Part shown: positions 1,543 through 55,240 of the stretch, piece after piece | Position numbering within the stretch: the first letter of the stretch is position 1 | Layout: each line of letters starts with the position of its first letter | From: Acidimicrobiales bacterium | GTDB lineage: Bacteria > Actinomycetota > Acidimicrobiia > Acidimicrobiales > SZUA-35 | Assembly: GCA_020629155.1 (NCBI GenBank) | Contig: JAHDDW010000008.1 | Span: forward strand, 1-64,000 | Direction of reading: 5' to 3' | DNA length: 64,000 nt | Made by a program: the position numbers and the translations under genes | The notes under the pieces: generated by a model | Databases searched by the model: none | Seen by the model: only the letters and a program-made list of their open reading frames with translations | Told to the model about the DNA's origin: nothing

Positions 1543-2423
1543 CTGCATGAGTTGAAGTTCCGGCGTTTTCTTGGTCGTTACGCTGCATTTGCTGTCCTGT
1601 TGACAGTAGAACGAATCACTATCGGCGGTAGAATTTCGAGATGAATGTATCTCACGCTACACCGGCTACAACCTGAGTTTATTTCAATGGCGCTTATGCT
1701 TCTAGCGGTAGCTTTCCCAGCGGGTCGGGTCATCGGTCGTGCCCATATAACAACTCTTTGGGTTTGGGCAGGAATGCATAAACTGCTTAGTGCAGGGTAT
1801 GCCGTAGGTGGAGCACAGTTTATTGCGGGAAGCTTAGGGTTGTCGATCTCCATGGCGCTATGGCTGTCTCCGCTCGCTGAGGTGTCGGTAGGTATTCTCG
1901 CTATCTTGTGGCGAAGCCGATATGCGGTTAGGACAAATCGTTACAAGAGCTAGAGCGTTCGCTCTTGCGGTTTGGCTTTTTGCTTGGTTGTATCCAGCAG
2001 GTTTCTATTTCGGGGTGTCAGATGCTTACTTGGCTCATAAATCTTTAGGCTACCAATATTGTTCGTTTTGTATCAAATCGCTTTACCAGAGAACCGCTAA
2101 AATCTGCGTGGAAACGCCCCGAGCGGAGCGGAAATACCTAGGGCATCTATACTAAATGGAGATGCCTTTATTCAAGCAATACCCAGCAAGCAGTTATTTG
2201 TGAATCCGCTTTAGTTTTCTCTGTAGATGATGTGAACTGTACTCGCCCTTTCGATTCAACATGGGATTCACTCAACGTCCCTTTCCCTCCCGAAACTCGG
2301 CTTTTTCGACAGTGGTTTGAGGCCTCATGTGTCGAAGGTGAGATTTTGTACATTTCTCCGATCAAGGTCAAAATAAGTAACTCTGAACCGCAAGAGTTCG
2401 CATGTCCAACAGTTGTGCGATAG
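1543..2423 (+). pseudogene. Broken multi-membrane protein gene carrying a repeat insertion
   Basis: Three pieces on the plus strand read like one disrupted gene. Piece one runs to about 1953 in one frame but is interrupted by a TGA at 1642-1644; it encodes hydrophobic segments such as ALMLLAVAFPAGRVIG and HITTLWVWAGMHKLLSAG. Piece two (about 1955-2047, another frame) encodes a further hydrophobic run, LAVWLFAWLYPAGFYFGVSDAYLAH. Piece three (about 2166-2423, a third frame) encodes a soluble-looking tail with FDSTWDSLNVPFPPETRLFRQWF and three cysteines. Between pieces two and three lies a copy of the dispersed repeat (2104-2166). CTTTA is found at 2043-2047 and again at 2166-2170, possibly a target duplication, but simple excision does not restore the reading frame. 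The family is not recognised with confidence. Confidence 0.45.
2104..2166 (+). repeat. Dispersed hairpin repeat, copy 1
   Basis: Begins with CTGCGTGGAAACGCCCCGAG, continues with CGGAGCGGAAATAC, and ends in a hairpin with arms GGCATCT and AGATGCC around an 11-base loop. It is one of seven related copies in the window (others at 3354, 14648, 14848, 27188, 41663 and 55152) and lies inside the broken membrane-protein gene. Confidence 0.75.
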
Positions 2424-2700
2424 GTCATCACAAGCGCAAAGTTTTTCCTTTCAGCGGATTTCCCTCCCACCTCGCCCCACAAAGGCATTGAACTTTAGAT
2501 AAATGGCTATTTGAGCTGTTCCTAATGGTGAATGTCTTTGTAGTGGTGTCCTAAATCGGGTCTGAAGGAAAAGGAAACTACATTTTTTGAGTTTCTTAAA
2601 ATTTGTAATGACATTTGTGTGTTTCCCCAGCTAGGAAAGTTGCTGGTCGAAAGGTGTCGTTCATGTGTTCGCTTTTAGTGATGGGGTAAACACAGAAAGT
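2424..2700. other. Non-coding stretch upstream of mraZ
   Basis: About 280 bases before the MraZ-type boxes without a convincing gene. Short open frames here have no recognisable protein features. A single TGGGG at 2682 is out of step by one base with the boxes further downstream. I see no tRNA, tandem repeat or hairpin of note. Confidence 0.5.
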
Positions 2701-2766
2701 TGTCAAATGAGGTTGCAAAGTGGGGCGAAGTGTCATAATGTGTCAGGCAGTGGGGATGATCCCCAC
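2701..2766 (+). promoter_or_regulatory. MraZ-type operator boxes before the dcw operon
   Basis: Four five-base boxes, each preceded by G, recur at exact 10-base spacing: TGGGG at 2721, TGTCA at 2731, TGTCA at 2741 and TGGGG at 2751. A further TGTCA sits in phase at 2701. MraZ is known to bind TGGGA-like direct repeats separated by five bases upstream of its own gene, so this is a likely autoregulatory site for the mraZ gene 150 bases downstream. The last box also forms a small palindrome, GTGGGG-ATGAT-CCCCAC (2750-2766). The operator call is an inference from spacing and position. Confidence 0.65.
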
Positions 2767-2823
2767 CGCAAGTATTTACTGAGCTTGTTTGTTTGGTTAC
2801 TTGGTTGCGCGCTGGCTTCTTAC

Positions 2824-2871
2824 GGAGTTTGTTTCAGGTCTTAACCGTCACCTGGACCTGAAACAAACTCC
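2824..2871. repeat. Perfect 17-base inverted repeat upstream of mraZ
   Basis: The arms GGAGTTTGTTTCAGGTC (2824-2840) and GACCTGAAACAAACTCC (2855-2871) are perfectly complementary around a 14-base loop. The structure ends 35 bases before the mraZ start and has no T-run, so it is not a standard terminator. In the transcript it would form a very stable leader hairpin; on DNA it could be a protein-binding dyad. Confidence 0.85.
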
Positions 2872-2906
2872 TGAGTGTCTAGGCGCAAAGTAAGGAAGGG
2901 TTCAAG

Positions 2907-3332
2907 ATGTTCGTCGGTCAGTACGAACATGCGTTAGATGGGAAAGGGCGGGTTGTGTTACCTGCTCCGTTTCGCGCATTTGTTGCTGACAGAGGATATG
3001 TCACCCAGCTAGACGGTTGCATCGGTTTATGGAGTGCTGAAGAATTTCGGAAAGTCGCTGAGAAGTGGAAAACCGAATCGGAAGCATCGCGTATTTCTAT
3101 GCGGGTGTTTAGAAAGTTGATGAATAGCGTTCGTGAAGTGAAGCTTGATTCTGCAGGTCGTGTGAATTTACCAAAAGACTTGCTGGACCAACTTAGCTTC
3201 GATTCGCAAGTGGTTGTTAGTGGTCTGTTTGACCGGGTTGAAATTTGGCCAGCTGAAACCTATGAGAAAGAACAAGAAACGCAGCAAGCAGATCAAGAAC
3301 TTGCTGAAGCAGTAGCAAGACTCGGTTTGTAA
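2907..3332 (+). CDS. mraZ: Transcriptional regulator MraZ
   Basis: A 141-residue protein matching the usual MraZ length, with the two tandem SpoVT/AbrB-like halves: GQYEHALDGKGRVVLPAPFR at residues 4-23 and EVKLDSAGRVNLPKDLL at about 78-94. The repeated D-x-x-GR-hydrophobic-LP core is the MraZ signature. MraZ is a DNA-binding regulator of its own division/cell-wall operon, acting on the repeated boxes found here at 2701-2755. The start at 2907 follows an AAGGAAG ribosome site. It is the first gene of the dcw run and is separated from rsmH by a structured leader RNA, so rsmH expression may be set independently. Confidence 0.95.
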   Translation: MFVGQYEHALDGKGRVVLPAPFRAFVADRGYVTQLDGCIGLWSAEEFRKVAEKWKTESEASRISMRVFRKLMNSVREVKLDSAGRVNLPKDLLDQLSFDSQVVVSGLFDRVEIWPAETYEKEQETQQADQELAEAVARLGL

Positions 3333-3353
3333 AGGAACGAAATGGATAGAGAT

Positions 3354-3417
3354 CTGCGTGGAAACGCCCCGAGTGGAGCGGAAATACGCAGGAAGCTAAA
3401 AGTAGTTAGAGCTTCTG
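3354..3417 (+). repeat. Dispersed hairpin repeat, copy 2
   Basis: Its first 20 bases, CTGCGTGGAAACGCCCCGAG, are identical to copy 1, followed by TGGAGCGGAAATAC. The 3' hairpin uses different arms (around GAAGCT and AGCTTC) yet keeps the pairing, which argues that structure rather than sequence is conserved in this part. It lies 22 bases after the mraZ stop and upstream of the rsmH leader RNA. Confidence 0.75.
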
Positions 3418-3445
3418 AAAGTAAGAAAGGAGAAGCAAGCAAAAG

Positions 3446-3465
3446 GCAAAGCGCTATCGCTTTGC
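3446..3465 (+). other. Stable hairpin preceding the rsmH leader RNA
   Basis: GCAAAGCG (3446-3453) pairs perfectly with CGCTTTGC (3458-3465) around a CTAT loop and is followed by a run of A. It lacks a T-run on this strand, so it is not a forward terminator. It may be the first stem of the leader RNA that follows. Confidence 0.7.
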
Positions 3466-3474
3466 AAAAAAGGT

Positions 3475-3570
3475 CGCTCATGGACTGCCTTCCGGGCTGA
3501 GGGAGGGGTAACTGCCCCACAACTCCACCCGCACTAACCTCCACCCAATCCGGAAGGTTGTCAATGAGCG
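3475..3570 (+). ncRNA. mraW-type leader RNA of rsmH
   Basis: The mraZ-rsmH gap holds a nested structure. An outer stem pairs CGCTCAT (3475-3481) with ATGAGCG (3564-3570). A second stem pairs CCTTCCGG (3488-3495) with CCGGAAGG (3550-3557), both perfectly. An internal hairpin GGGG-TAACTG-CCCC spans 3505-3518, and GGGAGG/CCTCC can pair around it. It ends 22 bases before the rsmH start. A conserved mraW RNA motif is known in Actinobacteria in exactly this place, the leader of mraW/rsmH, so this is very probably a member. I judged this by location and architecture, without a covariance-model search. No ligand or mechanism is implied. Confidence 0.75.
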
Positions 3571-3592
3571 AGCAGACAGGCTTGAAAAAACA

Positions 3593-4546
3593 ATGACTGC
3601 AACCGATCGTCAAAAACAAGCCAGCTTCTTCCATGAACCCGTTATGTGTTCTGAAATTATTGCATTGGCCAAGGAAATTCCAGCTGGCGTCTTTTTGGAC
3701 GCCACACTAGGTGGAGCCAACCACAGCGTGGCCCTGCTCAACTCACGGCCTGACATTACAGTGCTTGGAGTAGACCAAGACGCAGCTGCACTTGATGCAG
3801 CAAACATTGCTTTGGAAGAGTTCTCTGATCGGGTCTCTTTCCTGCATTGCCGCTTCGATAAAGTCGAACAAAATCTTCAAGCGCAAAATCAGGAAACTAC
3901 CAAATTGTCTGGGTTTCTTTTTGACTTAGGCGTAAGTTCGCCCCAGCTTGACTGGGCAGATCGTGGGTTTAGTTTCAGAAACGATGGCCCGCTTGATATG
4001 CGCATGGATACAAGTAATGAGTTGAGTGCTGCCTATGTTGTTAACAACTATGAAAAAGCCGATTTGCAGCGCGTTATCCATCGCTATTCTGATGAAAAAT
4101 TTGCTGGTCGGATCGCAGCTGCTATTTGCGAGTATCGTCCGATTGCTCGCACAGCAGAGTTGGCAGAAATTGTTGTAAATGCGATTCCTGCTGCGGCTCG
4201 TCGCAGTGGTGGTCATCCTGCGAAGAGAACATTCCAGGCTATCCGTATTGAAGTCAATCAAGAGTTAGAAGTTCTCAGGCCAGCATTGGAATGGGCGTTA
4301 GAAGCACTCGTTCCTGGTGGAAGAGGGTTTGTTTTGACCTATCACTCGGGCGAAGACAAAATTGTTAAGTCGCTCTTTCGAGACAACGTTACGTCGAGCG
4401 ATCCGCACGGTCTGCCAACAGTGGTCGATACCCCAAAGTTTAAAGTTGTTAGTCCCGCAGCTCGCAAAGCGAGTGATGAAGAAATTGCAAGAAATAGACG
4501 CTCTGCTAGTGCTCGTCTGCGAGTTATCGAACGGCTAGCCGCCTGA
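3593..4546 (+). CDS. rsmH: 16S rRNA m4C1402 methyltransferase RsmH
   Basis: A 317-residue protein, the usual length for RsmH (MraW). The SAM-binding region begins HEPVMCSEIIALAKEIPAG, followed by FLDATLGGANHS (about residues 35-46), which is the diagnostic GGAGHS-like motif. Other conserved blocks are LFDLGVSSPQLD, GFSFRNDGPLDMRMD and RTFQAIRIEVNQEL, plus a C-terminal LTYHSGEDKIVK. RsmH acts in the cytoplasm, adding the N4-methyl group of C1402 in the ribosomal P site. No Shine-Dalgarno sequence is evident at the ATG (3593), but the N-terminal motif starts 13 residues later, which fits. Expression is probably influenced by the leader RNA immediately upstream. Confidence 0.95.
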   Translation: MTATDRQKQASFFHEPVMCSEIIALAKEIPAGVFLDATLGGANHSVALLNSRPDITVLGVDQDAAALDAANIALEEFSDRVSFLHCRFDKVEQNLQAQNQETTKLSGFLFDLGVSSPQLDWADRGFSFRNDGPLDMRMDTSNELSAAYVVNNYEKADLQRVIHRYSDEKFAGRIAAAICEYRPIARTAELAEIVVNAIPAAARRSGGHPAKRTFQAIRIEVNQELEVLRPALEWALEALVPGGRGFVLTYHSGEDKIVKSLFRDNVTSSDPHGLPTVVDTPKFKVVSPAARKASDEEIARNRRSASARLRVIERLAA

Positions 4547-4557
4547 AAGGAAATACC

Positions 4558-4941
4558 ATGGTTGCAACAGCAACAAAACAAAGAGTAGAGCGGCGCGCTA
4601 AACCTGCACAAAAGGCCAAGCGGCCTGTTCTGCGATTTCTAGATCAGCAATCTATCAGAAGCCGCAAAAGAAAACGTAACGTGCTACTTGCAGGTTTCTT
4701 TGTGGTTATTCTTGCGTTATTTCTCGTTGCCTATGCTCAGGCGCAGCTCGTTTCGAGCCAGCAAGACCTTGACGTAATCCGCTCACGTACAGCAGAGTTA
4801 ACAGCTGAAAGTGAGCACCTGCGTGTACTCGTTAATGAAGCTTCGGCTCCTAATAGTATCGTCGCTAAAGCTGAAGAAATAGGCATGATACTAGGTGAAA
4901 GCCCTGTCTTTGTCGAGTCTGTAAGGGGTGCGACAGGCTGA
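4558..4941 (+). CDS. ftsL: FtsL-like septum protein
   Basis: A 127-residue bitopic protein: a basic cytoplasmic N-terminus, one membrane helix at about residues 42-62 (NVLLAGFFVVILALFLVAYA), then a short coiled-coil stretch (about 65-95) rich in Gln, Glu, Ser and Leu. Primary sequence is poorly conserved in the FtsL/DivIC family, so the call rests on size, topology and its place between rsmH and ftsI, the classical ftsL slot. FtsL joins FtsB and FtsQ in activating FtsW-FtsI at the septum. It begins 12 bases after rsmH behind a GAAAGGAAA ribosome site and overlaps the ftsI start by one base (TGATG). Confidence 0.75.
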   Translation: MVATATKQRVERRAKPAQKAKRPVLRFLDQQSIRSRKRKRNVLLAGFFVVILALFLVAYAQAQLVSSQQDLDVIRSRTAELTAESEHLRVLVNEASAPNSIVAKAEEIGMILGESPVFVESVRGATG

Positions 4942-10638: not shown

Positions 10639-10642
10639 ATAC

Positions 10643-13251: not shown

Positions 13252-14640
13252 ATGGAAAAAAAATCTACAACTATCGATTTGAGCAAGCCGAGGAAGGTCC
13301 ATATCGTTGGTGTCGGCGGCGCTGGTATGAGTGCTATTGCCGAAGTCTTGGCTGGTAAAGGCCATCAGGTTACTGGATCAGATTTGCATGATTCTCTGTT
13401 GTTGCCTGCGCTCGAAAGTCGTGGCGTAAAAACCTTTGTTGGCCATAATGCAGCTAATATCGGCGATGCCGAGCTGTTGACCTATTCAACAGCTATCCCA
13501 GCGACGAACCCCGAAATTGTTGAAGCGCAAAACCGTGGTATTCCAGTGCTTCGTCGTGCTGAAATGCTCAGCGCGTTAACAACTGCATGGAAAACGCTTG
13601 CAGTCGCAGGCACGCATGGCAAAACAACAACGTCGGCCATGTTGACAATTGCCATGCAAGGCGCTGGGTTAGATCCTAGCTATATCGTTGGCGGCATGGT
13701 CAAAGACGCTGGCCGAGGAGCTGCTGTCGGGTCAGGCGATCATCTTATTGTCGAAGCTGATGAGAGCGACGGCACCTTTATAGAGCTTGCTACCTACGGC
13801 GCTATTGTCACAAACGTTGAACCCGATCATCTTGAACATTATGGCGATTTCGCTACCCTTAAAAAGGCATTTGTCACCTTTGTTGATCAGTGCGACGGGC
13901 CGACCGTTGTTTGTCTTGATGACGAAGGCGCAGCAGAGCTTGCCACACATAGTACTGCGGCTGTTACCTACGGCACGTCTGATGCTGCCGATTGGCAGAT
14001 TACTGGAATAGAAAGCAGCGTTGACGGCTGTTCTTTTACTGTTTCTTCAGGAGAAGTGAGCGAGCGTATCACGTTGCCGCAGCCTGGTTTGCATAACGCT
14101 CGCAATGCAACAGCTGCATTTGTTTTGGCTGTGTTGCTAGGTGCGGATGCTACAAGGGTGGCTACAGCCCTCAGCGGTTTCGGCGGCGTAGGTCGTCGGT
14201 TCGAGCTACGTGGCGAGGCAAAAGGCGTGCGTCTTGTTGATGACTATGCACATCTTCCAACAGAAGTCGAAGCAGCATTGCAGGCTGGTCGAAGTACGAA
14301 ACCTGCACGTCTTGTCGCAGTGTTTCAACCGCATCGTTATAGCCGCACACAACAACTTTGGGATACGTTCGGTGATGCATTCACACAGGCAGATGTTCTG
14401 GTTGTGACGGGTATTTATTCTTCTGGTGAGAAGCCGCGAGAAGGCATTACAGGCAAGCTGATCGCAGATATCGTAACGAAAACACATCCAGATTTTCCTG
14501 TCACCTATATCGAAGATCTTACCGACGTGACAGCGCATCTTGTTTCAAGTCTGGAAGAAGGCGACCTATGCATGACACTAGGCGCTGGGGACCTTACCGA
14601 TATTTGTGATGACGTCATCGAAGGCTTGCAAAAGGCATAG
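13252..14640 (+). CDS. murC: UDP-MurNAc:L-alanine ligase MurC
   Basis: A 462-residue Mur ligase catalysing addition of L-alanine to UDP-MurNAc. The N-terminal motif HIVGVGGAGMSAIAEVLAGK binds the UDP substrate, the ATP loop is VAGTHGKTTTSAML (about residue 118), and EADESDGTFIELAT, NVEPDHLEHYG and DYAHLPTEVEAALQAGR are the family blocks. It starts 2 bases after murG. It is followed by a 239-base non-coding gap with two copies of the dispersed repeat, so it probably closes the tightly coupled part of the operon. Confidence 0.95.
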   Translation: MEKKSTTIDLSKPRKVHIVGVGGAGMSAIAEVLAGKGHQVTGSDLHDSLLLPALESRGVKTFVGHNAANIGDAELLTYSTAIPATNPEIVEAQNRGIPVLRRAEMLSALTTAWKTLAVAGTHGKTTTSAMLTIAMQGAGLDPSYIVGGMVKDAGRGAAVGSGDHLIVEADESDGTFIELATYGAIVTNVEPDHLEHYGDFATLKKAFVTFVDQCDGPTVVCLDDEGAAELATHSTAAVTYGTSDAADWQITGIESSVDGCSFTVSSGEVSERITLPQPGLHNARNATAAFVLAVLLGADATRVATALSGFGGVGRRFELRGEAKGVRLVDDYAHLPTEVEAALQAGRSTKPARLVAVFQPHRYSRTQQLWDTFGDAFTQADVLVVTGIYSSGEKPREGITGKLIADIVTKTHPDFPVTYIEDLTDVTAHLVSSLEEGDLCMTLGAGDLTDICDDVIEGLQKA

Positions 14641-14647
14641 GTTGTAA

Positions 14648-14712
14648 AGGGGATGTCTTTTTTATTGTACATCCCCTCAGTATTTCCGCTCTGCTTAGGG
14701 CGTTGCACGCAG
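14648..14712 (-). repeat. Dispersed hairpin repeat, copy 3 (reverse)
   Basis: Read on the reverse strand it has CTGCGTGC, AACGCCC, AGAGCGGAAATAC and then a hairpin with perfect arms AGGGGATGT and ACATCCCCT around a 12-base A/T-rich loop. It lies directly after murC, about 135 bases from copy 4 and in opposite orientation. It is not followed by a convincing T-run on either strand. Confidence 0.75.
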
Positions 14713-14847
14713 CTTTTAGCGGTTTGCTGTTCAAGTCATCTGGCAAAAAGCAATACATAGGCATAGTCTTAAGGGTCTCTAATGAAGCAAAGTAGTAAAA
14801 AAGCAAGAAAGAGCATGTCTATTTATCGTTTTTCGGTCAGATCGCAT

Positions 14848-14898
14848 GACCGAGTGGAGCGGAAATGCGGAGGGCATCTATGATTACTAGAGATGACC
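14848..14898 (+). repeat. Dispersed hairpin repeat, copy 4, overlapping the ftsQ start
   Basis: Contains GAGTGGAGCGGAAATGCGGA and then a hairpin with arms GGCATCT (14873-14879) and AGATGACC (14891-14898). The ftsQ ribosome site GGAGGG (14869-14874) runs into the left arm, and the ftsQ ATG (14880) is in the loop, so the repeat supplies the translation start region of ftsQ. A short hairpin, GGTCA-TGACC (14835-14851), abuts its 5' end. Confidence 0.7.
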
Positions 14899-27096: not shown

Positions 27097-27187
27097 GAGA
27101 TTTTTTGTCTTAGGCTCTGCTTCTTTCCCTCTGACCCATTTGCAGCCATGTCGTTTATTGAACCGTTGGTCAGATGGTCGTTTAACT

Positions 27188-27280
27188 CTGCGTGTAAATG
27201 CCTCAAGGGGAGTGGAAATACAGCGGCCATCTACAATTTTTAGAGATGCCCTGAGGGGATGTATAATGCAAGACATCCCT
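27188..27280 (+). repeat. Dispersed hairpin repeat, copy 5 (double hairpin)
   Basis: CTGCGTGTAAATGCC, AAGGGGAGTGGAAATAC, then two hairpins in tandem: one around GGCCATCT and AGATGCC, a second with AGGGGATGT (27254-27262) and ACATCCCT (27273-27280). The two 3' hairpin types seen separately in other copies occur together here. It ends 15 bases before dnaE. Confidence 0.7.
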
Positions 27281-37631: not shown

Positions 37632-37689
37632 CGCTGTCTGGAAAGGAAAGAAATTAGAGCTTTGCGCTAGATGGTTTTCCCAAGGTGTT

Positions 37690-37922
37690 TGTGTCTCGAC
37701 ATCCTCAACTGGTCTCGTCATCCCCAACTGGTCTCGTCATCCCCAACTGGTCTCGTCAGCCCCAACTGGTCTCGTCATCCCCAACTTGATTGGGGATCCC
37801 TCCTTGGCTAGATTCCCAGTCGTAGCTGGGAATGACGTGACTAACTGGGAAAGACGTGGACGCAGCTGGGAGTGACGTGGCTGTGGCTGGGAATGACATG
37901 GTTGTGGCTGGAATAAACCATC
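37690..37922. repeat. Composite intergenic tandem repeat, left copy
   Basis: Four 19-base units of the form CCCAACTGGTCTCGTCATC span 37704-37779. They are followed by the hairpin CCCCAA-CTTGA-TTGGGG, the hairpin TTCCCAG-CTGGGAA, and then imperfect units built on CTGGGAATGACGTGG to about 37920. A related composite lies in opposite orientation at 41410-41600. There is no credible gene here; the open frame crossing it is a by-product of the repeats. Confidence 0.9.
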
Positions 37923-37926
37923 TAGT

Positions 37927-39516
37927 CTAATTGGTGGACATACTGCTAGCTGCAATATCTTGTTGTTCTTGCTCATCAAAAATTTGGGACGAAACTGTTA
38001 GATCGATTGTTTCTGTGACATCAAGTGGTTCGACATCATCGGCGATTGCATCAACAGGTGCCATTTTTTTCTTAAATATCTTACGAAGTGGCATAAGCAC
38101 GGCAGTGACAATAACTTGCTCGATGGTTGCCAAGATTATACGCAAGTCAAGCATGATGTTCCAGTTCTCGACATAATGTAAGTCGAGTCGTCGGTAGGCG
38201 TTGAAAGCTGCGTTTGATCGCGCTTCAACCTGCCATAGGCCTGTTATGCCAGGGCGAACGTCGCTTCTTTTTTGTAGCTCGTCATCAAAATCTTTCACTT
38301 CTTCTGGCAGCGCTGGTCGTGGACCAACAAGGCTCATATCGCCTTTAAGAACGTTGAAAAGTTGAGGTAGCTCATCTATAGAAGTTTCTCGTATGAATTT
38401 GCCGATACTTGTTATTCTTGGATCGTTCGAAACTTTAAAGAGCGGCCCAGATCGTTCGTTTTGTTCAGCCATCTGCTTTTTGAGCTCTTCAGCGTTTGTC
38501 ACCATCGAACGAAACTTATACATAGCAAACGTTCCGTTATGGCCAGTGCGCTGTGAAGTATAGGTGACTGGGCCTCTGTCTTGTAGCCAAATAGCTAGCG
38601 CTGTTCCAACCAAAATAGGTGATGCCAAAATAATTGCTATAGAAGACCCCACGATATCGATTATTCGCTTTGCGCCATATTGCCAGGTCGGAGGAGCGTT
38701 ATGGCCAACGACTATAAATGGTTCATGAGCTATAGATTTAACGTCAAACCGTCCTGCTCCCATGCGGCTTACTCCAGTTGTTAAGTGAAGATCAAAGCCT
38801 GATCGGAAAATTTCTTTTGCAATACTTCTAAATCGTTGGCCTCTGAAACCAGTTGTGGTGATAATTGCGCTATCAATATTTTGCTTACGCATAATTTCGA
38901 CAAGGCGCCCAGTTGGTCCGATCCATAAGTTTGCTAGGTCATTTTTCTCGGCAATAGCTAAGTTGCCGACAACACCAGCAAGAATAAAGTTAGCTTCAGG
39001 GTGATCTAAGATAAGTTGTGTGAGCTCTTTAGCCTCGACACCTGTCCCGACAACAACTACTTTCTCTCGGTTGGCGTTGCGTGCATTCGACAAAAGGTTT
39101 CGCACTAAACCTCTTGTTAAAGTGCGGAGGATGAAAACGGTGATAGTGCCAAGGATGATCTCCCACGCTGCAACATACCAGTCGGTGAATGCAGCAAAGA
39201 CAGCAGCTGCGCCAGCTCCTCCGAGAACTGAAGTAAACACTCGTGAAATCTCTTCCGTTCGAGCAAGATTTCTACCCTTAATGTAAAGGCTGCGTCGTTG
39301 CATTATAAAAAGTGTTACACAAGCTGCGACAGCAGAAATAGTAATGCCTTCTTTGGAGGCACGTAAAGATTCGTCGACTGTAATTGTGCTCAGCTCAATG
39401 ATGGAAAACCATCCAAGGAAAAGAACAACTATGTCTGAGAAAAACTGCAGAACATGCGGCTGCAGCCTTTTTCTCTTAGATGAAGCCATACGTGCCGTAC
39501 TCCTAAACCTTCCCAC
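37927..39516 (-). CDS. Polyprenyl glycosyl-phosphotransferase (exopolysaccharide priming)
   Basis: A 529-residue membrane enzyme of the WbaP/CpsE type. Four or five N-terminal helices are followed by a Rossmann-like CoA-binding-like domain (about 145-260) and a final helix at about 277-300. The catalytic cytosolic domain comes next: RTGHNGTFAMYKFRSMVTNAEEL, the DPRITSIGKFIRETSIDELPQLFNVLKGDMSLVGPRPALPEEV core and RPGITGLWQVEARSN. It transfers a sugar-1-phosphate to undecaprenyl phosphate, starting the repeat unit for the locus. The C-terminal 50 residues are an acidic extension beyond the usual end. Confidence 0.9.
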   Translation of the reverse strand: MGRFRSTARMASSKRKRLQPHVLQFFSDIVVLFLGWFSIIELSTITVDESLRASKEGITISAVAACVTLFIMQRRSLYIKGRNLARTEEISRVFTSVLGGAGAAAVFAAFTDWYVAAWEIILGTITVFILRTLTRGLVRNLLSNARNANREKVVVVGTGVEAKELTQLILDHPEANFILAGVVGNLAIAEKNDLANLWIGPTGRLVEIMRKQNIDSAIITTTGFRGQRFRSIAKEIFRSGFDLHLTTGVSRMGAGRFDVKSIAHEPFIVVGHNAPPTWQYGAKRIIDIVGSSIAIILASPILVGTALAIWLQDRGPVTYTSQRTGHNGTFAMYKFRSMVTNAEELKKQMAEQNERSGPLFKVSNDPRITSIGKFIRETSIDELPQLFNVLKGDMSLVGPRPALPEEVKDFDDELQKRSDVRPGITGLWQVEARSNAAFNAYRRLDLHYVENWNIMLDLRIILATIEQVIVTAVLMPLRKIFKKKMAPVDAIADDVEPLDVTETIDLTVSSQIFDEQEQQDIAASSMSTN

Positions 39517-39604
39517 CGACTACCAAGGTATCACTATAGAGGCAAAGAGGTGTGAGCTTGCTAGGAGTTTGGGGGTATCTGCTTAGCGAATAAGCTATTG
39601 CAGC

Positions 39605-40297
39605 CTACGCAGGTTTTTGTGCTGTAAGAAGTTGTGCCGCACCGAAGGTTAGCTGCTGCCTCGCAGCGTCAGCGAAACCAATTTTTGTGAGCAGCGCTAA
39701 CATTTCTTCTGGTTCTGGAAGATAGGAGAACGATTTAGGAAGGTATGCATATGCTTTGCGATCTGAAAGCAAACCGCCAACTTTCGGGACGATCGTATTG
39801 AAATAGAGCGAATGGGCTGACCTGACATACTTGTTGTCAGGTCGAGAAACATCGAGAAGTGCTATTCGGCTGCCAGGCTTGCAGACACGGAAAAGTTCGG
39901 CAAAAAAAGGTTCTAGCGAGACAAGATTGCGTAAAGCAAAACCACAGACAGCCCCATCTACAGAACTATTGCCGATAGGCAGCGCCAGAAGGTCGCCTTG
40001 TACATAGGTATCGTCTGATTGTGCAGCGCTTAGCATCCCGAAGGAAAGGTCGATTCCTACAGGGGTGTGCCCCCCTTTGGCTAGGGCAACAACGAAATCG
40101 CCTGTGCCACATGCCAAGTCGAGCACCGTTGCGCCAGGTTTGAGCTGGAGCGAGGTGATTGTTTTTTTGCGCCACCTTGTATCGAGCCTAAAGGTCATGA
40201 TGCGATTTACCAGATCATATCGTGGCGCTATAGCATCAAACATGTTTTGAACATCTTTGCGTTTTTTCTCGCCGTGCGGCAAGTTAACTGGATCCAT
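39605..40297 (-). CDS. menG: Demethylmenaquinone methyltransferase MenG/UbiE
   Basis: A 230-residue SAM-dependent methyltransferase. The start KRKDVQNMFDAIAPRYDLVNRIMTFRLDTRWRKKTI is the UbiE/MenG hallmark; the SAM site is VLDLACGTGDFVVALA, and then come FALRNLVSLEPFFAELFRVCKPGSRIALLDVSRP and LYFNTIVPKVGGLLSDRKAYAYLPKSF. It performs the last methylation in menaquinone synthesis, the expected quinone in Actinobacteria. It lies 4 bases after rlmN on the same strand, so the two are probably co-transcribed. Confidence 0.93.
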   Translation of the reverse strand: MDPVNLPHGEKKRKDVQNMFDAIAPRYDLVNRIMTFRLDTRWRKKTITSLQLKPGATVLDLACGTGDFVVALAKGGHTPVGIDLSFGMLSAAQSDDTYVQGDLLALPIGNSSVDGAVCGFALRNLVSLEPFFAELFRVCKPGSRIALLDVSRPDNKYVRSAHSLYFNTIVPKVGGLLSDRKAYAYLPKSFSYLPEPEEMLALLTKIGFADAARQQLTFGAAQLLTAQKPA

Positions 40298-40301
40298 AGC
40301 C

Positions 40302-41354
40302 TTAGGCCTCTTTCTTCGTCAGCTTAACGGCTGTGGCTTTGTGCGATGCTTGTAACTGTCCGCAGGCAGCATCTATATCAGTGCCTCGGTTTCGTCGGAC
40401 TGTGACTTCAACGCCACTATCTTGCAGCTGCTGGGTGAAGGCTTTGATAGTTTCTTTTGACGAGCCGACCGTTGGCCAACCAGGTGTTGGGTTAAGCGGA
40501 ATAAGATTTACGTGCGCTCTAGCTTTTTTAGCTACAGAGATGAGTTGCTGTGCGTCTTGAGGCGAGTCGTTTGTGTCTTTAATCATCGCCCATTCAAACG
40601 ATACTCTGCGACCAGTTTGATTTCTGTAGTCTTGGCAGGCAACGACGAGTTCTTCAATAGGGTGGCGCTTATTGATAGGTACAAGTTTTGTTCTCAAGTC
40701 GTTGTTTGCCGCGTGTAACGAAACAGCAAGCCCAACTTGCAGGCGGCGCTTCGTAAACATGACAATCTGAGGGATGAGGCCGATAGTTGAGACGGTGACA
40801 TGGCGTGCCCCAATCTTGAAGTCTTGACAGATTCGGTCAACGGCTGGCATAACGTTTTTGTAATTCGCAAACGGCTCGCCCATACCCATAAAGACCACAT
40901 TAGAAAGCCGCTTAGGGTTCGGTAATGTTGCCGATGCTTGCCGTGCGGCTACGATTTGTTCGAGGATCTCGCCGACCGATAAGTTACGCTCATAGCCAGC
41001 TTGTCCTGTTGCACAGAACCCGCAGCCCATAGCGCAGCCTGCTTGGCTTGAAACACAGACGGTAGAGCGGTCTTTATAGTGCATCAAAACAGTTTCAATA
41101 GTTTTGCCGTCGCTTAGTTCCCATAACCACTTAACGGTTTGTCCGTTGTTGCTTGTTTGTTCTGCAACTTGACGTAATGCTTTAGGGAACCGTTCGGTAA
41201 GTTCTTGACGGAGCCCTTTCGGGAGGTTTGAAATTTCGTCGAAATAGTGGTTATTGTCATAAAGGCCCTGCCATAATTGTGTCAGGCGAAACGATGGTAA
41301 CCCTTGGACAACCTCTGAATAGTCTTGTTTTGTTAGATCCCACGGCGAAGTCAC
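40302..41354 (-). CDS. rlmN: 23S rRNA/tRNA adenine-C2 methyltransferase RlmN
   Basis: A 350-residue radical-SAM enzyme. The 4Fe-4S motif is in CVSSQAGCAMGCGFCATGQAGYERNL (CxxxCxxC). FMGMGEPFANYKNVM, HVTVSTIGLIPQI, GLAVSLHAANNDLRTKLVPINKRHP and a C-terminal VRRNRGTDIDAACGQL, carrying the methyl-carrying Cys, complete the family pattern. It methylates A2503 of 23S rRNA and A37 of some tRNAs. The N-terminal RNA-binding segment is normal. It is divergent from nth across a repeat-filled spacer. Confidence 0.95.
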   Translation of the reverse strand: MTSPWDLTKQDYSEVVQGLPSFRLTQLWQGLYDNNHYFDEISNLPKGLRQELTERFPKALRQVAEQTSNNGQTVKWLWELSDGKTIETVLMHYKDRSTVCVSSQAGCAMGCGFCATGQAGYERNLSVGEILEQIVAARQASATLPNPKRLSNVVFMGMGEPFANYKNVMPAVDRICQDFKIGARHVTVSTIGLIPQIVMFTKRRLQVGLAVSLHAANNDLRTKLVPINKRHPIEELVVACQDYRNQTGRRVSFEWAMIKDTNDSPQDAQQLISVAKKARAHVNLIPLNPTPGWPTVGSSKETIKAFTQQLQDSGVEVTVRRNRGTDIDAACGQLQASHKATAVKLTKKEA

Positions 41355-41409
41355 CCACTCTATAGTAGTGGTCTGTCTGCTAAAGGCGGTGCCCTAGATG
41401 GTTGATTTC

Positions 41410-41605
41410 AAGCCTATCCAGGTCGTCATTCTCAGCCAAACGTGTCATCGCCAGCTGTGTCCACGCCATTTCGAGCTGCGTCCACGTCATTCCCCAGCCA
41501 CGCCACGTCATTCCCAGCCACGACTGGGAATCTGACCAAGGAGATCCCCAATCAAGTTGGGGATGACGGGGTCGAGTGGGGATGACGGGGTCGAGTGGAG
41601 AGCGT
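41410..41605. repeat. Composite intergenic tandem repeat, right copy (inverted relative to the left)
   Basis: Contains GTCATTC-type units with CAGCCACG, the hairpin CCCAGCCACGACTGGG, ATCCCCAATCAAGTTGGGGA (a hairpin), and two units of GATGACGGGGTCGAGTGG. Its order is the reverse complement of the composite at 37690-37922. The divergent rlmN-nth promoter region (41355-41702) holds no gene. Confidence 0.88.
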
Positions 41606-41662
41606 ACATCGCCTCAGCAGTATTGATTTTGCTGAACTGCTGAGATTAAAGAACGGTAGAAC

Positions 41663-41700
41663 CTGCGTGGCAACGCGCCAAGCGTAGCGGGTAGGCTGCA
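41663..41700 (+). repeat. Dispersed hairpin repeat, copy 6 (5' part only)
   Basis: CTGCGTGGCAACGCGCC, AAGCGTAGCGGG: a diverged 5' block, truncated before the hairpin and ending two bases before the nth ATG. Confidence 0.55.
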
Positions 41701-49411: not shown

Positions 49412-49467
49412 CGGCAGACGCAGTCGTGTCGCTGTATTCTATCGAATAGATCACACGTTCGGATGGC

Positions 49468-49520: not shown

Positions 49521-49563
49521 AGCGCGCTTTGTAGTGGCCTAGGCCACGAGTGAGTGTTTTGCT

Positions 49564-49800: not shown

Positions 49801-49939
49801 GATAGGGTCACCTTTTTCTTTTTTGTTTGGCGGATGCTGAGTGGAGTAATTACCTCAGCGACAGTGACAGTAGCAAGCCTTGAAGAAGAACTCAAGTATA
49901 AACGAGATGAATCTTCGATACTGACGGTGCAGCGTGATT

Positions 49940-49983
49940 CTCTATGTTGAAGCGAGGGTCCGTTTTGCTGCTTCAACAGAGAG
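49940..49983. repeat. Inverted repeat downstream of the glutaredoxin gene
   Basis: CTCTATGTTGAAGC and GCTTCAACAGAGAG, 14-base arms with one mismatch and a 16-base loop, begin 4 bases after the glutaredoxin stop on the reverse strand. T-rich sequence follows only on the plus-strand side (TTTTT), so it may end plus-strand or antisense transcription, or simply protect the mRNA end. Confidence 0.7.
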
Positions 49984-49986
49984 TTT

Positions 49987-50253
49987 TTAAGGCAACAAAT
50001 GCGGAGCTTTCTCTTTCAAAATTTCTTGAATTTCTTTTATCGAAGGATTAACTCGGGCAGTGTCACCTATGCGCACTGTTGGTACAACTTCGTTGCCATC
50101 AGCAACTGAACGCACATATGCTGCTGCTTCGGGATTTTCCCATATGTTATGTTTCGTTGTCGGTATTTTGCTTTTCTTAATAGCCTTTTCTAGCGAAGCG
50201 CAAAAAGGGCAGCCTGGTCTCCAAAAAACTTCGATTGCATCTAGCGTTGTCAT
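49987..50253 (-). CDS. Mycoredoxin-like glutaredoxin
   Basis: An 88-residue thioredoxin-fold protein from the ATG at 50253, which has AGGAG six bases upstream; the longer frame to 50310 is unnecessary. The redox motif is CPFC in EVFWRPGCPFCASLEKAI, and the cis-Pro loop is GNEVVPTVRIGDT. In Actinobacteria such proteins (Mrx1) reduce mixed disulfides with mycothiol. The substrate here is inferred from the group, not shown. Confidence 0.85.
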   Translation of the reverse strand: MTTLDAIEVFWRPGCPFCASLEKAIKKSKIPTTKHNIWENPEAAAYVRSVADGNEVVPTVRIGDTARVNPSIKEIQEILKEKAPHLLP

Positions 50254-50337
50254 AGGTTCTCCTAAAGAGTTGTTCTGAGAAGTAACAGCGTACCGCCTCA
50301 AAAAATTCATTAGCTAGTATGTTCGCCTAAGTCGAAG

Positions 50338-51450: not shown

Positions 51451-51579
51451 AGATTCTAACCAGTGTATGCAACGTCGGCGTTGGGTATGGCAAAGTAATA
51501 CTATCTTTATGAAGCGGCTGTAGCTGGTGTTGGTTCTGCGTTTCGATTGTGTTTAGCTCTTTTTACAGTAGTTTGAGAA

Positions 51580-52338
51580 CTAATTTAGGACAACAAAAAC
51601 TAAAAGTATGGCTGCCAACAAACCAACAAAAAGCCATTCGATCCTGTTTCGTGTCGTCTGCTCTGACAGCAAAAAAGCTTCTGTCGCTAGTGTTTTGTCT
51701 TGAATAATAAGAAGTTGTTTTTCTATAGAACGTAATCGCTGTTGTTTTTTAGCAGCGATTTTTTTTGCAAGTACGAGTTCTTTATTGAGCGAACTGTGAA
51801 CATCTTGGAGTTTCTGAAAATCGTTTTGGCTCGCAAGAAGTTGTTTTTCTAAAGCATCAACGTCGATATCAACAAGTTCGATTGTTGATTCTTTACGCAA
51901 AATGCGTCCCCGGATCTTGCGGATCTTGATGCTAGATTCTGGGCTGATAGGAGATAAGATGCGTTCCATTCCTAACACGGCTCTATCTATCAGATCAGGA
52001 TCATCGGGCACAGCAAAGTGCGCCCACTTGTTGCGAATATCTATCAGATTACTGATAATTGGTCGTAGGTCTTGTTTAAAATGATCAGCGAATACTGGCC
52101 CCCAAAATCGACGCAGAACAAGAAGTTGAAAGAGCGGGTCAAGAGACCCATGCTCATTAGGTCGACCGAGTTTGTTGGCTGCGGTTTCTGTCCAAGAATC
52201 TTCGTTGAGATACGCTTGCATCCTTGTAGTTATAAATTTGTTAAGACCAGCGGCAAGTGTTTCAAAAGCAGCTGCAAGCTCAACATGGTGGCTTATCGCT
52301 TGATTTGTCTGATTGTTATGCTCTGCGGCCATCTGCAT
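51580..52338 (-). CDS. Membrane-anchored HEPN protein (Swt1-like HEPN, coiled coil, TM)
   Basis: About 250 residues; the second ATG (52332) has the better spacing from GAGGAG. The N-terminal 110 residues are helical with an R-x4-H motif, RNKWAH (Arg102-His107), preceded by LFQLLVLRRFWGPVFADHF and ISNLIDIRN, as in Swt1-like HEPN domains. HEPN domains are often RNases of toxin or anti-phage systems. A long Gln/Lys/Glu coiled coil follows (about 160-225), and a single C-terminal membrane helix (WLFVGLLAAILLVFVVLN) anchors it with the domain in the cytoplasm. No antitoxin gene is adjacent. The RNase activity is an inference. Confidence 0.6.
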   Translation of the reverse strand: MQMAAEHNNQTNQAISHHVELAAAFETLAAGLNKFITTRMQAYLNEDSWTETAANKLGRPNEHGSLDPLFQLLVLRRFWGPVFADHFKQDLRPIISNLIDIRNKWAHFAVPDDPDLIDRAVLGMERILSPISPESSIKIRKIRGRILRKESTIELVDIDVDALEKQLLASQNDFQKLQDVHSSLNKELVLAKKIAAKKQQRLRSIEKQLLIIQDKTLATEAFLLSEQTTRNRIEWLFVGLLAAILLVFVVLN

Positions 52339-52545
52339 TCTCCTCTGTAGTTCTCTTCGGTAGAAAGAAAGAAAAAATCAGTAGTTCAGAGGATGTCTTT
52401 GCTCATCTGTTTTACTCAGTTTAGGCCCTTCTTTACAGAGCGCTATTAGATGGAACGTAGCGTTCGCGTATTTAGAAGAAGTGCTGTTAAAAGCAATTAA
52501 CGGGCAAACCCTCAATGTCAGTGTCAAAACATCCGACATAGAGAT

Positions 52546-54147
52546 GTGAATGAAAACGCTAGCAAGTCTTTCCTATTTAGCTTTTTTGGTGGCTTGCTTA
52601 TAGGCTCCATAGCTGCAATATTTTTGAAAATGTTTTTTTCACTCTCAACAACTGCTTTCATGTATTTAATGATTTCGGTGGGGTTTACCTTAGTAGGTTC
52701 ACTGGCAGGGCTGCTGATTTGGATAAATTCTACAAAAGACGATCATCAATCAATTGAGAAAGCCCAGCATGATGCCACTCATGATTCTTTAACTGGTCTT
52801 TTGAATCGAGCTGGGCTACTAGACGAACTTGAATTTTCAATACAGGAAGCTAGAGAAAACGAAATGGCGCTAGGCGTTTTGTTTCTAGACCTGAATAGGT
52901 TCAAAGTTATAAATGACTCTATGGGCCATGATGCAGGTGATGAACTGTTATGCATTGTTGCTGAACGACTTAAAAAAGCTGTGCGGAGCACAGATGTTGT
53001 GGCAAGATTCGGTGGCGACGAATTTATTGTTGTCAGCCGAGGCCTTCTATCAAAGAAATCTGTTGTATCAGTTGCAACACAGATTTTGAAAAGTTTCGCC
53101 GAGCCTGTGTCTCTTGCAGGTGGGAAGCAAATAGTTTCGACAAGTATCGGCGTTGCTATAACCGACCATCATGACACAAGAGATGCACAAGAACTTTTGC
53201 GTGATGCAGACTCAGCTATGTTTGAAGCGAAAAGAAATAAGACGGGTCACGCTGTCTTTGATGATTCGCAAAGGCAAAAGAACATCAAGCGACTTGAAAT
53301 AGAACAAGATTTAACAGCGGCGTTCGAAAAAGACGAATTTGTTGTTTTCTATCAACCGATTATTGATGTTATGACGCGAGATATTTACGCATTTGAAGCG
53401 CTTGTTCGCTGGAATCATCCAACGCAAGGCTTGCTTATGCCAGGCGAATTTCTAGGTGTAGCCGAAGAAGTTGGCATGATGGGCAAGATCGGTGACTTAG
53501 TTCTACGTGAAGCTTGTGCTCAAGCATCGATTTGGAATCATCTTTCAGCTTCAGCGAGAAACGTCAAAATGAGTATTAACGTTGCAGAGCAACAGTTAAC
53601 AAACCCTGACTTTTTGGAAGATATTGTTTCTGTGTTGAGTTGGTCAGGTTTACATGCTGACCAACTTATTTTGGAGATCACCGAAGATGTTATGGTTGAA
53701 CATCTTGACGGGTTAGATGCGTTGCGCCGCATAAAATCTCTGGGAGTGTCACTTGCTATCGACGATTTTGGCACAGGGCAGTCGTCTCTTAGCTATATTA
53801 AAGAATTTGATATGGTGTCGACGTTAAAAATCGACCAAACCTTTGTGCGAGATATGAACTCTGAAGGCGCTGATAGGGCCATTATCGAGGCAACTATTGC
53901 TATGGCCAGAGCGCTTGATATGTCTATAGTAGCCGAAGGTGTCGAGCATAAAGAACAGCTAGAAGCATTGCGGCAGCTTGGGGTGCATAAGATGCAGGGC
54001 TATTTTTTCAACAGGCCCGTTGCGGCTGAAGTCGTTGACCCGCAACGATGGTTTGGGCGAAATCAAGAAGAACCACAAGAGCGAAGCATTGGCTTTAAAC
54101 CCGTTGAGGTAAGCCATGGCTATGCGCAGCGCGGCGACGCGTCGTAA
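52546..54147 (+). CDS. Bifunctional GGDEF-EAL cyclic-di-GMP enzyme
   Basis: A 533-residue protein starting with GTG. Two membrane helices (about 9-32 and 38-60) flank a very short outer loop, then the GGDEF domain (motif GGDEF at 156-160, with an inhibitory-site RxxD, Arg147-Asp150, five residues before it) and the EAL domain (EAL at 284-286, with NVAEQQL, ITEDVM, DDFGTGQSSL and AEGVE). Both catalytic motifs look intact, so it may make and break c-di-GMP under some signal. There is no sensor domain besides the membrane part. It may connect with the polysaccharide locus, but that is speculation. Confidence 0.92.
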   Translation: MNENASKSFLFSFFGGLLIGSIAAIFLKMFFSLSTTAFMYLMISVGFTLVGSLAGLLIWINSTKDDHQSIEKAQHDATHDSLTGLLNRAGLLDELEFSIQEARENEMALGVLFLDLNRFKVINDSMGHDAGDELLCIVAERLKKAVRSTDVVARFGGDEFIVVSRGLLSKKSVVSVATQILKSFAEPVSLAGGKQIVSTSIGVAITDHHDTRDAQELLRDADSAMFEAKRNKTGHAVFDDSQRQKNIKRLEIEQDLTAAFEKDEFVVFYQPIIDVMTRDIYAFEALVRWNHPTQGLLMPGEFLGVAEEVGMMGKIGDLVLREACAQASIWNHLSASARNVKMSINVAEQQLTNPDFLEDIVSVLSWSGLHADQLILEITEDVMVEHLDGLDALRRIKSLGVSLAIDDFGTGQSSLSYIKEFDMVSTLKIDQTFVRDMNSEGADRAIIEATIAMARALDMSIVAEGVEHKEQLEALRQLGVHKMQGYFFNRPVAAEVVDPQRWFGRNQEEPQERSIGFKPVEVSHGYAQRGDAS

Positions 54148-54194
54148 AGGGTCCTAGATTTTAAGCACAATTCGATACGGTAGCCTATAGATCT

Positions 54195-55136
54195 GTGGCG
54201 AAAGTTAGATCGTTTCTAGAGGGTCGTTTTTGGGTGGTGCTGTTCTTAGCAATGGCCGTTGCGTTGCTGTTTCCACAGTTAGGCAAAAATTATTTGCATC
54301 TATTGCAGTACATAATGATGACGGTCTTATTCTTCGTGCTTCTGAAGGTCGATATCATCAGTATTTTGCGTAGCATCCAAAATTGGTGGCTGACGCTTTA
54401 TGTAGCAGCGATGAATCTGTTACTTGTGCCGCTTGGGTTTTATTTCGTTCTCGAATCTTTTAGCGCCGAATATGCATTGGCTATAGCGCTTATCGTCGCT
54501 GCGCCTGCTGGCATGGCATCAGCTACGTTGTCTGATTTGTTGCATGGAAATACTGCAATGGCTGCGGGTTTGACGATTGTAACTTCGTTAGCAACCCCAT
54601 TTACGCTTCCGCTTGTTGTCAGCATCGCTGCGCAAGAATCTGTTGAAGTTGGCATTGTCGAGATGATTGCATCGCTAGCTGTGACAGTTTTTGTGCCCAT
54701 GGCTCTTGCCCAAGGTGTGAAGCGTTGGTTCGTGTCAGCAGCTACACGGTTGGAACGCAACGTTTCTTCTATCAACGTGCTTTTGCTATTTGCTCTTGTC
54801 TATATTGCAGTGGCGGCACAGCAAAAACAGATCTTAGACGGTCTCAATCGTTTCATATGGCAGCTCGCAGTCATGTTTATTGTCTATCTAGCGTTGCATG
54901 TCATAGGGTTTATCCTTATTCCTAACGCAAAGTTTGCTGACAAACTCAGTTCTGCTATCACTTTGGCATACACCAACATAGGCATTTCTATTATCGTTGC
55001 TTCTGAGTTTTTCTCTGCTGAGGTGCTTGTCCTTGTTGTGCTCTCAGAGATTCCTTGGGTCATGTGCCTCGGTCCATTCAAGGCAGCGATTAACTGGCAT
55101 GCTTCTCGAAATGCTGTTGCGGCGACACACCACTAA
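54195..55136 (+). CDS. BASS-family transporter (bile acid:Na+ symporter-like)
   Basis: A 313-residue membrane protein with nine to ten helices. NLLLVPLGFYFVLESFSAEYALAIALIVAAPAGMASATLSDLLHGNTAMAAGLTIVTSLATPFTLPL matches the BASS/arsenite permease core, where a first crossover region (ALIVAAPAGMAS) and a second (TLAYTNIGISI) line the substrate site. The substrate could be an organic anion, a keto acid or a metalloid; neighbours give no clue. The start is GTG. Confidence 0.82.
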   Translation: MAKVRSFLEGRFWVVLFLAMAVALLFPQLGKNYLHLLQYIMMTVLFFVLLKVDIISILRSIQNWWLTLYVAAMNLLLVPLGFYFVLESFSAEYALAIALIVAAPAGMASATLSDLLHGNTAMAAGLTIVTSLATPFTLPLVVSIAAQESVEVGIVEMIASLAVTVFVPMALAQGVKRWFVSAATRLERNVSSINVLLLFALVYIAVAAQQKQILDGLNRFIWQLAVMFIVYLALHVIGFILIPNAKFADKLSSAITLAYTNIGISIIVASEFFSAEVLVLVVLSEIPWVMCLGPFKAAINWHASRNAVAATHH

Positions 55137-55151
55137 CACGCGTACATACTT

Positions 55152-55240
55152 CTGCGAGTTGCTCAAAGCGACGTTGAGATGGTGGATCGAACGGAGCGGA
55201 ATTGCTGAAGGGATGTACAATGAAAAATATCCTCTTCAGA
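55152..55240 (+). repeat. Dispersed hairpin repeat, copy 7
   Basis: CTGCGAG, then CGAACGGAGCGGAATTGC, then a long hairpin with CTGAAGGGAT (55205-55214) pairing with ATCC-T-CTTCAG (55229-55239). It ends 43 bases before purK. Confidence 0.65.

Follow-up and report, generated by a model that had tools for sequence, protein, structure and literature searches.

A dispersed repeat of about 120 bp with inverted ends, TWWA target duplications and a fold-conserved core in an Acidimicrobiales genome

The first 64,000 nucleotides of contig JAHDDW010000008.1 (forward strand; Acidimicrobiales bacterium, GenBank assembly GCA_020629155.1), the whole of which is referred to here as the window, carry a short, mostly hairpin-bearing repeat in seven places. 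What kind of element is this repeat, and does it act on the genes beside it? A reading of the DNA from its letters alone (the sequence-only reading) described a unit of about 65 bases and proposed either a small non-autonomous mobile element co-opted as leader RNA or a regulatory RNA. The repeat represents a new family of non-autonomous mobile DNA that resembles miniature inverted-repeat transposable elements (MITEs) and has an unusual fold-conserved core. It is likely that this repeat of about 120 bp, with inverted ends and 4-bp TWWA duplications, spread by means of a transposase that acted in trans and that the element itself never encoded.

Anatomy, copy number and insertion sites

Copies read in register consist of a 5' arm, a conserved core, and a terminal hairpin, in that order, over about 120 bp. 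The 5' end, GG(C/G)YAT(C/G)TCTATTTATT, is followed by a T-rich 5' arm that extends to the core, CTGCGTG..AACGCCCCGAGCGGAGCGGAAATAC, and an example of the terminal hairpin is GGGCATCT-(ATAATAAATAG)-AGATGCCC. Because the hairpin's 3' arm matches the 5' end as well, the element has inverted ends. The end pattern GGSYATSTCTATTTATT, with up to 2 mismatches, matched the genome 67 times (both ends of some copies included) versus 2 times for the reversed control, and the 5' end, with up to 4 mismatches, was found in 60 of 137 copies versus 17 of 820 control windows. The 65-base unit of the sequence-only reading is a real repeat, but it is just the 3' half of the longer element.

Several structural variants were observed. 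One palindromic copy (C37:110835-110954) has two 5' arms around a CTGCGT-TAGC-ACGCAG hairpin, with TTTAAA flanking one side and TTAAAG the other. Copies at C28:119665 and C33:8514 have in common an extra segment of about 30 bases between core and hairpin, which possibly marks a longer subfamily, and at C5:350875-351147 four cores are arranged in tandem with 69-bp spacing and a hairpin on the last. The hairpin loops of most folded copies hold TANAAT or a near variant (TATAAT, TACAAT, or TAAAAT), resembling a -10 box. A promoter in the loop was considered and dropped, as no -35 partner was apparent by eye and there was no orientation bias.

The host genome (G000) comprises 3,165,525 bases in 59 contigs and is 97.4% complete. 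A covariance model, R1, was built from 30 aligned copies, copies 1 and 3 of the window among them. Searching the 3.17-Mb genome with R1 recovered all seven copies that the sequence-only reading had placed in the window and extended the family to at least 137 copies at E<=1 and at least 125 at E<0.01; the run scored 150 of 752 first-look candidates, and the count may thus be low. BLAST of the genome against itself with copy 1 as the query gave 41 matches at E<=10. The core pattern matched 149 times with up to 3 mismatches and 37 times with none, versus 40 and 0 times, respectively, for the reversed pattern. Because the core and end patterns far outnumber their reversed controls, the repeat is not a product of chance.

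R1 was also run on 39 genomes of the family, scoring 111 candidates per genome. It matched G000 alone (109 matches at E<=0.01), and the 38 other genomes, two of the same genus included, gave 0 matches. BLAST with a 121-nucleotide consensus against 99 genomes (own and relatives) matched G000, genome G064 twice, and genome G030 once; on reading, the G064 matches were cores and the G030 match lay within coding sequence. No Rfam family reached gathering level in the 64-kb window, and no Rfam match at E<=1 was found in ten loci bearing copies. The repeat had no match in the plasmids or phages searched, and two repeat patterns run on viral contigs gave none.

The flanks of the copies bear the mark of insertion. 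Among 31 copies with both ends well matched, flank agreement was best at 4 bp with no boundary shift (z 4.2), a value that 0 of 500 permutations equaled, with z values of 3.5 and 3.6 for the overlapping 3- and 5-bp frames. At looser limits (44 copies), the flanks matched at 3 or more of 4 positions in 21 copies versus 11.3 when permuted (0 of 2000 as high). Identical flanking 4-mers were found in 8 of the 44 versus 2.6 expected, with a maximum that was also 8 in 1000 permutations. The flanks share the consensus T-(T/A)-(A/T)-A, i.e., TWWA. Copy 1 has TTTA on either side, although its 5' end is too degenerate for the copy to enter the 44-copy count. The repeat has several of the features by which MITEs are recognized: a target-site duplication (4 bp, TWWA), terminal inverted repeats, though in under half of the copies, short length (about 120 bp), no transposase gene, and many copies (125 at E<0.01).

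Some insertions coincide with stop codons. In 13 of 118 copies the hairpin boundary falls exactly on a facing stop codon, and the same holds for the 5' boundary in 4 of 75. At C1:171488 the target TTAA comprises the stop codons of two convergent genes, both of which were kept by the duplication, and C1:129640 is a less clean case of the same kind. It is conceivable that the repeat is a transcript-end element whose hairpin terminates or protects mRNA and is retained at stop codons for that purpose. A facing stop within -25 to +60 bases of the hairpin boundary in 46 of 118 copies would be consistent with this, as would the stability of the hairpin stretch relative to shuffled sequence (mean z -2.17, controls about 0) and the short T run that follows a few hairpins (e.g., C3:121604). 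However, by eye most folded hairpins have no T run after them, convergent gaps hold copies no more often than divergent gaps (18 versus 20 of 117 intergenic copies), and the stop-codon contacts would be explained by the TAA within the TWWA target. There is only a slim chance that transcript ends account for the repeat.

The position of copies relative to genes was assessed with a simple greedy caller of open reading frames, some of whose calls are doubtful. This assignment places 117 of 137 copies between genes, with the other 20 overlapping a called frame. The next gene is on the same strand in 57 of the 117 intergenic copies and on the opposite strand in 60; there is no bias toward leaders or transcript ends. 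Genome G001, of the same genus (MurG 57% identical), keeps the gene order over much of the window. The gap before dnaE is about 60 to 70 bp in G001, which has no element there, versus 199 bp in the window, and mraZ and rsmH touch in G001 but are 260 bp apart here.

These observations bear on the possibility that the repeat is a family of cis-regulatory leader RNAs, each copy folding in a 5' leader and controlling the next gene. The stems covary, as expected of a regulatory RNA with a conserved structure (subject to the measures, given below, that do not exceed shuffles), several window copies end near start codons, and one holds possible starts of ftsQ. The same orientation as the gene would also be expected, and this was not found. 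The neutral orientation argues against leader RNA as a general role, which was rejected on these counts; of the sequence-only proposal of a mobile element co-opted as leader, the small non-autonomous mobile element is supported and the leader as a general role is not. The target duplications, the inverted ends, and the lack of counterparts in G001 for the copies before dnaE and between mraZ and rsmH also count against a leader family, which we regard as very unlikely. Regulatory use at single genes is possible.

Pairing, mobilization and the core in other genomes

The core can be written CTxCGT..ACGyN-CYRAGCG-N'-AGCGG, in which x pairs with y and N with N'. In the 56 of 137 copies whose core pairs could be parsed, x:y was G-C in 40, C-G in 7, G-T in 6, and mismatched in 3, and N:N' was C-G in 34, G-C in 16, T-A in 2, G-T in 1, and mismatched in 3. 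A pattern search that left N and N' free gave 37 exact matches, which by hand count comprised 33 Watson-Crick pairs, one G-T pair, and three mismatches. A core alignment was made from 8 cores of relatives and 32 of the 56 parsed copies, all distinct and with no more than six of any one type. In it, 94.9% of cells pair, and 26 cells changed on both sides versus 7.7 in shuffled alignments (0 of 500 as high), with 0 to 3 in slid controls. The 30-copy R1 alignment gave 23 such cells versus 7.5 shuffled. Related sequences can inflate such counts, and the model used to find this genome's copies in the core alignment already included the pairs. A further pairing, P1, between conserved CCGCT and AGCGG was kept in the first covariance model but was rejected, as no P1 pair changed on both sides and the pairing was not seen in copies of other families.

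The terminal hairpin was parsed in 129 copies whose arms resembled the consensus, as the parse required. Its two covarying positions read C/C with G/G in 44 copies, G/G with C/C in 27, and A/G with C/T in 9. The distant 5' end takes part in this covariation: among 58 copies parsed, 47 had C or G at both positions, and in 41 of these the base at position 7 of the 5' end equaled that of the hairpin arm, versus 29.2 when permuted (maximum 39 in 2000). Three strands, the 5' end and both hairpin arms, thus change together. A further test was independent of hairpin sequence. When the 60 bases after the core were folded for 64 of the 66 core matches with at most 1 mismatch (all but C3:42244 and C1:1629, the latter of which looks like part of a gene), the mean z was -2.17 with 35 below -2, versus 0.03 and 0.0 for controls, each with 4 windows below -2. 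The folded stems include ones unrelated in sequence (GAAGCT, AAAGATGTAAAGA, and GAGTGAGCT, with GGGCAGCT and GGGCGTCT as single variants). The sequence-only suggestion that stems differ while pairing is mostly kept is borne out, and covariation is seen at the core stem, at a second pair, and in the terminal hairpin.

Template switching or gene conversion within quasi-palindromes might keep the pairing without selection or function. Unrelated stems that stay paired, duplicated hairpins, and partial tandem copies are what such a process could yield. However, the alignment in which x:y and N:N' covary draws on other families of the order as well, a four-pair stem with a loop of a few bases leaves little room for switching, and the distant 5' end co-varies with the hairpin. 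We regard this explanation as quite unlikely.

The core also occurs elsewhere. A core-only model, R2, was run on 397 genomes of the order. Its E-values are rough, with about 20 bits as background; 211 of the 397 genomes pass E 0.01. Matches of at least 27 bits were kept, a limit set after the list had been seen, and nearly all the other passing genomes score about 20 bits. Besides G000, these were in genomes of families f27 (G064, G305, G353, G322, and G113), f52 (G130), and f26 (G367), with G012 (33 bits) and G253 (27 bits) doubtful on reading. Records with the core include Acidimicrobiales MAG-144 and MAG-179 and a metagenome-assembled genome of Microthrixaceae. A search of relatives, which the sequence-only reading had proposed, therefore finds the core alone in other Acidimicrobiales families but the full element in none of the 38 family genomes. 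In most relatives' records the core forms short arrays of two to four without arms. In MAG-144 (L087:6363-7913), three in-frame cores form the C-terminal tail LRGPNAPSEAEETG, with LRGPNAPSEAEEVAS as its last unit, of a 516-residue open reading frame that overlaps the start of an 822-residue frame; from sequence and order we take the two to be NuoF (probable) and NuoG. The frame used, LRGPNAPSEAE, is the same as that of an in-frame copy in G000 (LRANAPSAAE). A looser core pattern run on genome contigs gave 12 stretches, five of them from Acidimicrobiales, and a stricter pattern gave 0 matches. The seven stretches from Gammaproteobacteria are one coding motif, presumably MutL, and were rejected as chance. 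The occurrence of armless cores in other families of the order makes it probable that the core predates the 120-bp element.

Copies without the 5' arm also occur in G000. At C58:53926, a core and hairpin of about 66 bp lie in frame in a membrane protein of 1041 residues (P0001), which has 32 residues between two anchors where 13 of 17 homologues have 10 to 15, one has 4, and three have 1; the latter four also lack much of the following segment. The homologues (P0002-P0012, P0014, P0015, P0022, P0034, P0042, and P0046) were picked, with gaps, from the top of the search list. Open reading frames run through further copies; the one in a kinase gene, at C3:93688, is not counted among the empty-site cases. 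One possibility is that the core and hairpin, about 65 bp together, form a mobile unit of their own, recognized by fold rather than sequence and moving without inverted ends. Its stem would be rewritten with pairing kept, it would enter genes in frame and pass through Acidimicrobiales families, and the 120-bp element would be this unit plus an acquired 5' arm and a transposase-readable end. We consider this unlikely.

In the preferred mechanism, transposition of the whole element, the observed part consists of the ends, duplications, copy number, structure, and neutral orientation. With a DDE-type transposase acting in trans and bound to its ends, the element would move by cut-and-paste into TWWA sites. 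Surviving insertions would be those between genes or exactly at TAA stops, where the duplication would restore the stop. Source copies would need the core and hairpin folds for movement, perhaps bound as a folded single strand or a cruciform, and covariation would then mark source subfamilies, with individual copies decaying afterwards.

A search for the mobilizing enzyme covered PF01797, PF13586, and PF01609, two of which are of DDE type, in the 59-contig genome. PF01797 and PF13586 had 0 matches. The one PF01609 match, on C55, is a gene with different ends, which we take to be IS1182-like. Thirteen stretches around end-pattern matches outside known copies, which are part of the unexplained matches, were fetched and read, and nine open reading frames scanned in them contained no transposase.

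Transfer by an IS200-like tyrosine transposase (RAYT) acting on a single-stranded hairpin, as for repetitive extragenic palindromes (REPs) and REPINs, would fit a short, hairpin-bearing, intergenic repeat of more than 100 copies. Y1_Tnp genes are present in 7 of 8 examined relatives that bear the core (doubtful G012 included) versus 3 of 11 that do not. However, G000, the richest in copies among the genomes examined, has 0 Y1_Tnp matches, and no core was seen within about 1.5 kb on each side at 20 of 21 Y1_Tnp places in relatives. To our knowledge, Y1 transposition would not be expected to yield inverted ends or 4-bp duplications. The core's G-N'-AG reads GGAG, GCAG, GAAG, or GTAG according to N', with no constant tag. 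With no Y1_Tnp match in G000 and no core seen at those 20 places in relatives, this candidate was set aside as very unlikely.

Several findings weigh against transposition of the 120-bp element as the full account. No transposase with the element's ends was found in the enzyme search, although MITE families without a known autonomous partner exist, and 77 of 137 copies have no recognizable 5' end. A few of these lie instead between long direct repeats (23 bp at C5:351698, 17 bp at C5:277198, and 17 bp with one mismatch at C48:16822), with scores of 23, 17, and 14 compared with 20 once and otherwise at most 12 among 822 permuted pairs; TWWA cut-and-paste does not explain them. G001 is too distant to provide exact empty sites. 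In the count of pairs showing a double change, neither alignment exceeds its shuffles (131 of 500 for the core alignment and 195 of 500 for the R1 alignment), and the same is true of further pair types in the core alignment (89 of 500). In the other six hairpin pairs, 106 single changes break the pair and 42 give G-T, while 29 double changes keep the pair and 12 do not. Given 106 breaking versus 29 compensated changes, individual copies are weakly constrained. These change counts indicate that subfamilies covary while individual copies decay.

Window copies and neighboring genes

The seven window copies (Table 1) lie beside mraZ, rsmH, murC, ftsQ, dnaE, nth, and purK, with the ftsQ and mraZ assignments resting on matches below NCBI's cut-off. 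That copy 5 joins two hairpins, as the sequence-only reading had it, is confirmed.

Table 1. Copies of the repeat in the 64,000-nucleotide window
Feature	Position	Strand	Basis	Parts and remarks
Copy 1, left target duplication TTTA	2044..2047	.	sequence read	
Copy 1, full element, 119 bp	2048..2166	+	R1 E 2e-18	5' arm from 2048, core 2104-2131, terminal hairpin 2141-2166
Copy 1, right target duplication TTTA	2167..2170	.	sequence read	
Copy 2	3354..3417	+	R1 E 4.6e-7	core 3354-3381, hairpin 3389-3417; stem GAAGCT/AGCTTC (unrelated); no 5' arm seen; in 260-bp mraZ-rsmH gap
Copy 3, full element	14649..14768	-	R1 E 1.7e-15	hairpin from 14649, core 14686-14712, 5' end 14752-14768; flanks on own strand TTAA and TTTA
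Copy 4, 88-bp deletion derivative	14811..14898	+	R1 E 0.0017	both ends present; overlaps two possible ftsQ ATG starts (14865, 14880)
Copy 5	27144..27279	+	R1 E 3.1e-8	upstream of dnaE; 5' end 27144-27160, core 27188-27215, hairpins 27225-27250 and 27254-27279
Copy 6, core only	41662..41690	+	R1 E 0.0013	no clear hairpin after core (z -0.57); nth starts 41703
Copy 7, degenerate core end and hairpin	55186..55239	+	R1 E 0.33 (weak match)	hairpin 55205-55239; upstream of purK

The 3' part of copy 4 (14865-14898) contains a GGAGG along with the two possible ATG starts of ftsQ. Copy 4 may have supplied the ftsQ translation start, and this copy, with its possible ribosome-binding site and start codons, is the clearest single-copy candidate for a leader. 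In G001 a 298-residue open reading frame, which from its sequence we take to be murB, lies between murC and ftsQ. It is missing at this place in the window (14640-14865), where the murC-ftsQ gap instead holds two copies in opposite orientation.

Other features were observed near the copies. Between copy 2 and rsmH, a G+C-rich self-complementary stretch (3476-3569) has a sole Rfam match of E 0.21, far under that family's gathering score; it resembles the actinobacterial mraW leader motif. A second repeat family at 37674-37925 and 41394-41587, with palindromes CGTCATTCCCAG..CTGGGAATGACG and CGTCATCCCCAACT and 19-bp tandem units, is arranged as two inverted arms, 3.5 kb apart, on either side of the genes at 37927-41354. 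This family looks like the CGTC-tagged REPs (PMC3733652), and a piece similar to it sits upstream of a copy in locus L081. An inverted pair of 30 bases (530-559 and 40005-40034), 93% complementary and 39 kb apart, is perhaps another dispersed repeat.

Relation to known systems

No description of the element was found in the open-licence literature searched, Acidimicrobi and Ilumatobacter repeats included. Acidimicrobium ferrooxidans appears in a table of repetitive extragenic palindromes (PMC12306157). The main texts of a review of prokaryotic MITEs and a survey of tagged REPs do not contain the word "Actinobacteria," which suggests that MITE- and REP-like repeats are little described in the phylum. 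The present case is also a warning that covarying dispersed repeats beside genes need not be regulatory RNAs. With more than 100 natural variants of one fold in a single genome, whether a mobilizing enzyme recognizes fold or sequence becomes directly testable.

Bacterial MITEs are the closest comparison. Like Correia/NEMIS, RUP, and ERIC/RU-1 (Delihas 2007, PMC2229807), the repeat is about 100 to 200 bp long, has no transposase gene, and has inverted ends, a target duplication, and mostly A+T-rich targets. Most bacterial MITE families listed in that source have a TA dinucleotide at their termini, whereas the duplication here is TWWA (4 bp); moreover, the present element is asymmetric, with a covarying core and one terminal hairpin. 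The Caulobacter/Brucella CIR element also has two hairpin-forming parts with a linker and intergenic copies, but in the same source it is tabulated without terminal inverted repeats and carries GANTC, unlike the inverted ends and TWWA duplications found here.

A 2024 review describes bacterial MITEs together with the in-frame Rickettsia palindromic elements (RPEs), which are about 150 bp long and often intragenic (PMC10969869). The present repeat is likewise palindromic and can insert in frame into protein genes, as found for the one copy compared with 17 homologues. However, 117 of 137 copies here are intergenic and the clearest in-frame insert is about 66 bp. Since most copies are intergenic, this is likeness to the RPEs rather than membership.

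The tagged REPs (PMC3733652) share with the repeat a short palindromic structure, high copy number, and stems that differ between subsets. Unlike the GTAG- and CGTC-tagged REPs as described there, it has no constant GTAG or CGTC core tag, it is longer and has inverted ends, and no RAYT was found in G000. Three things come together in the present element: a clear TWWA duplication of 4 bp, internal pairing preserved through compensatory changes, and a core found in other families of the order without the mobile ends.

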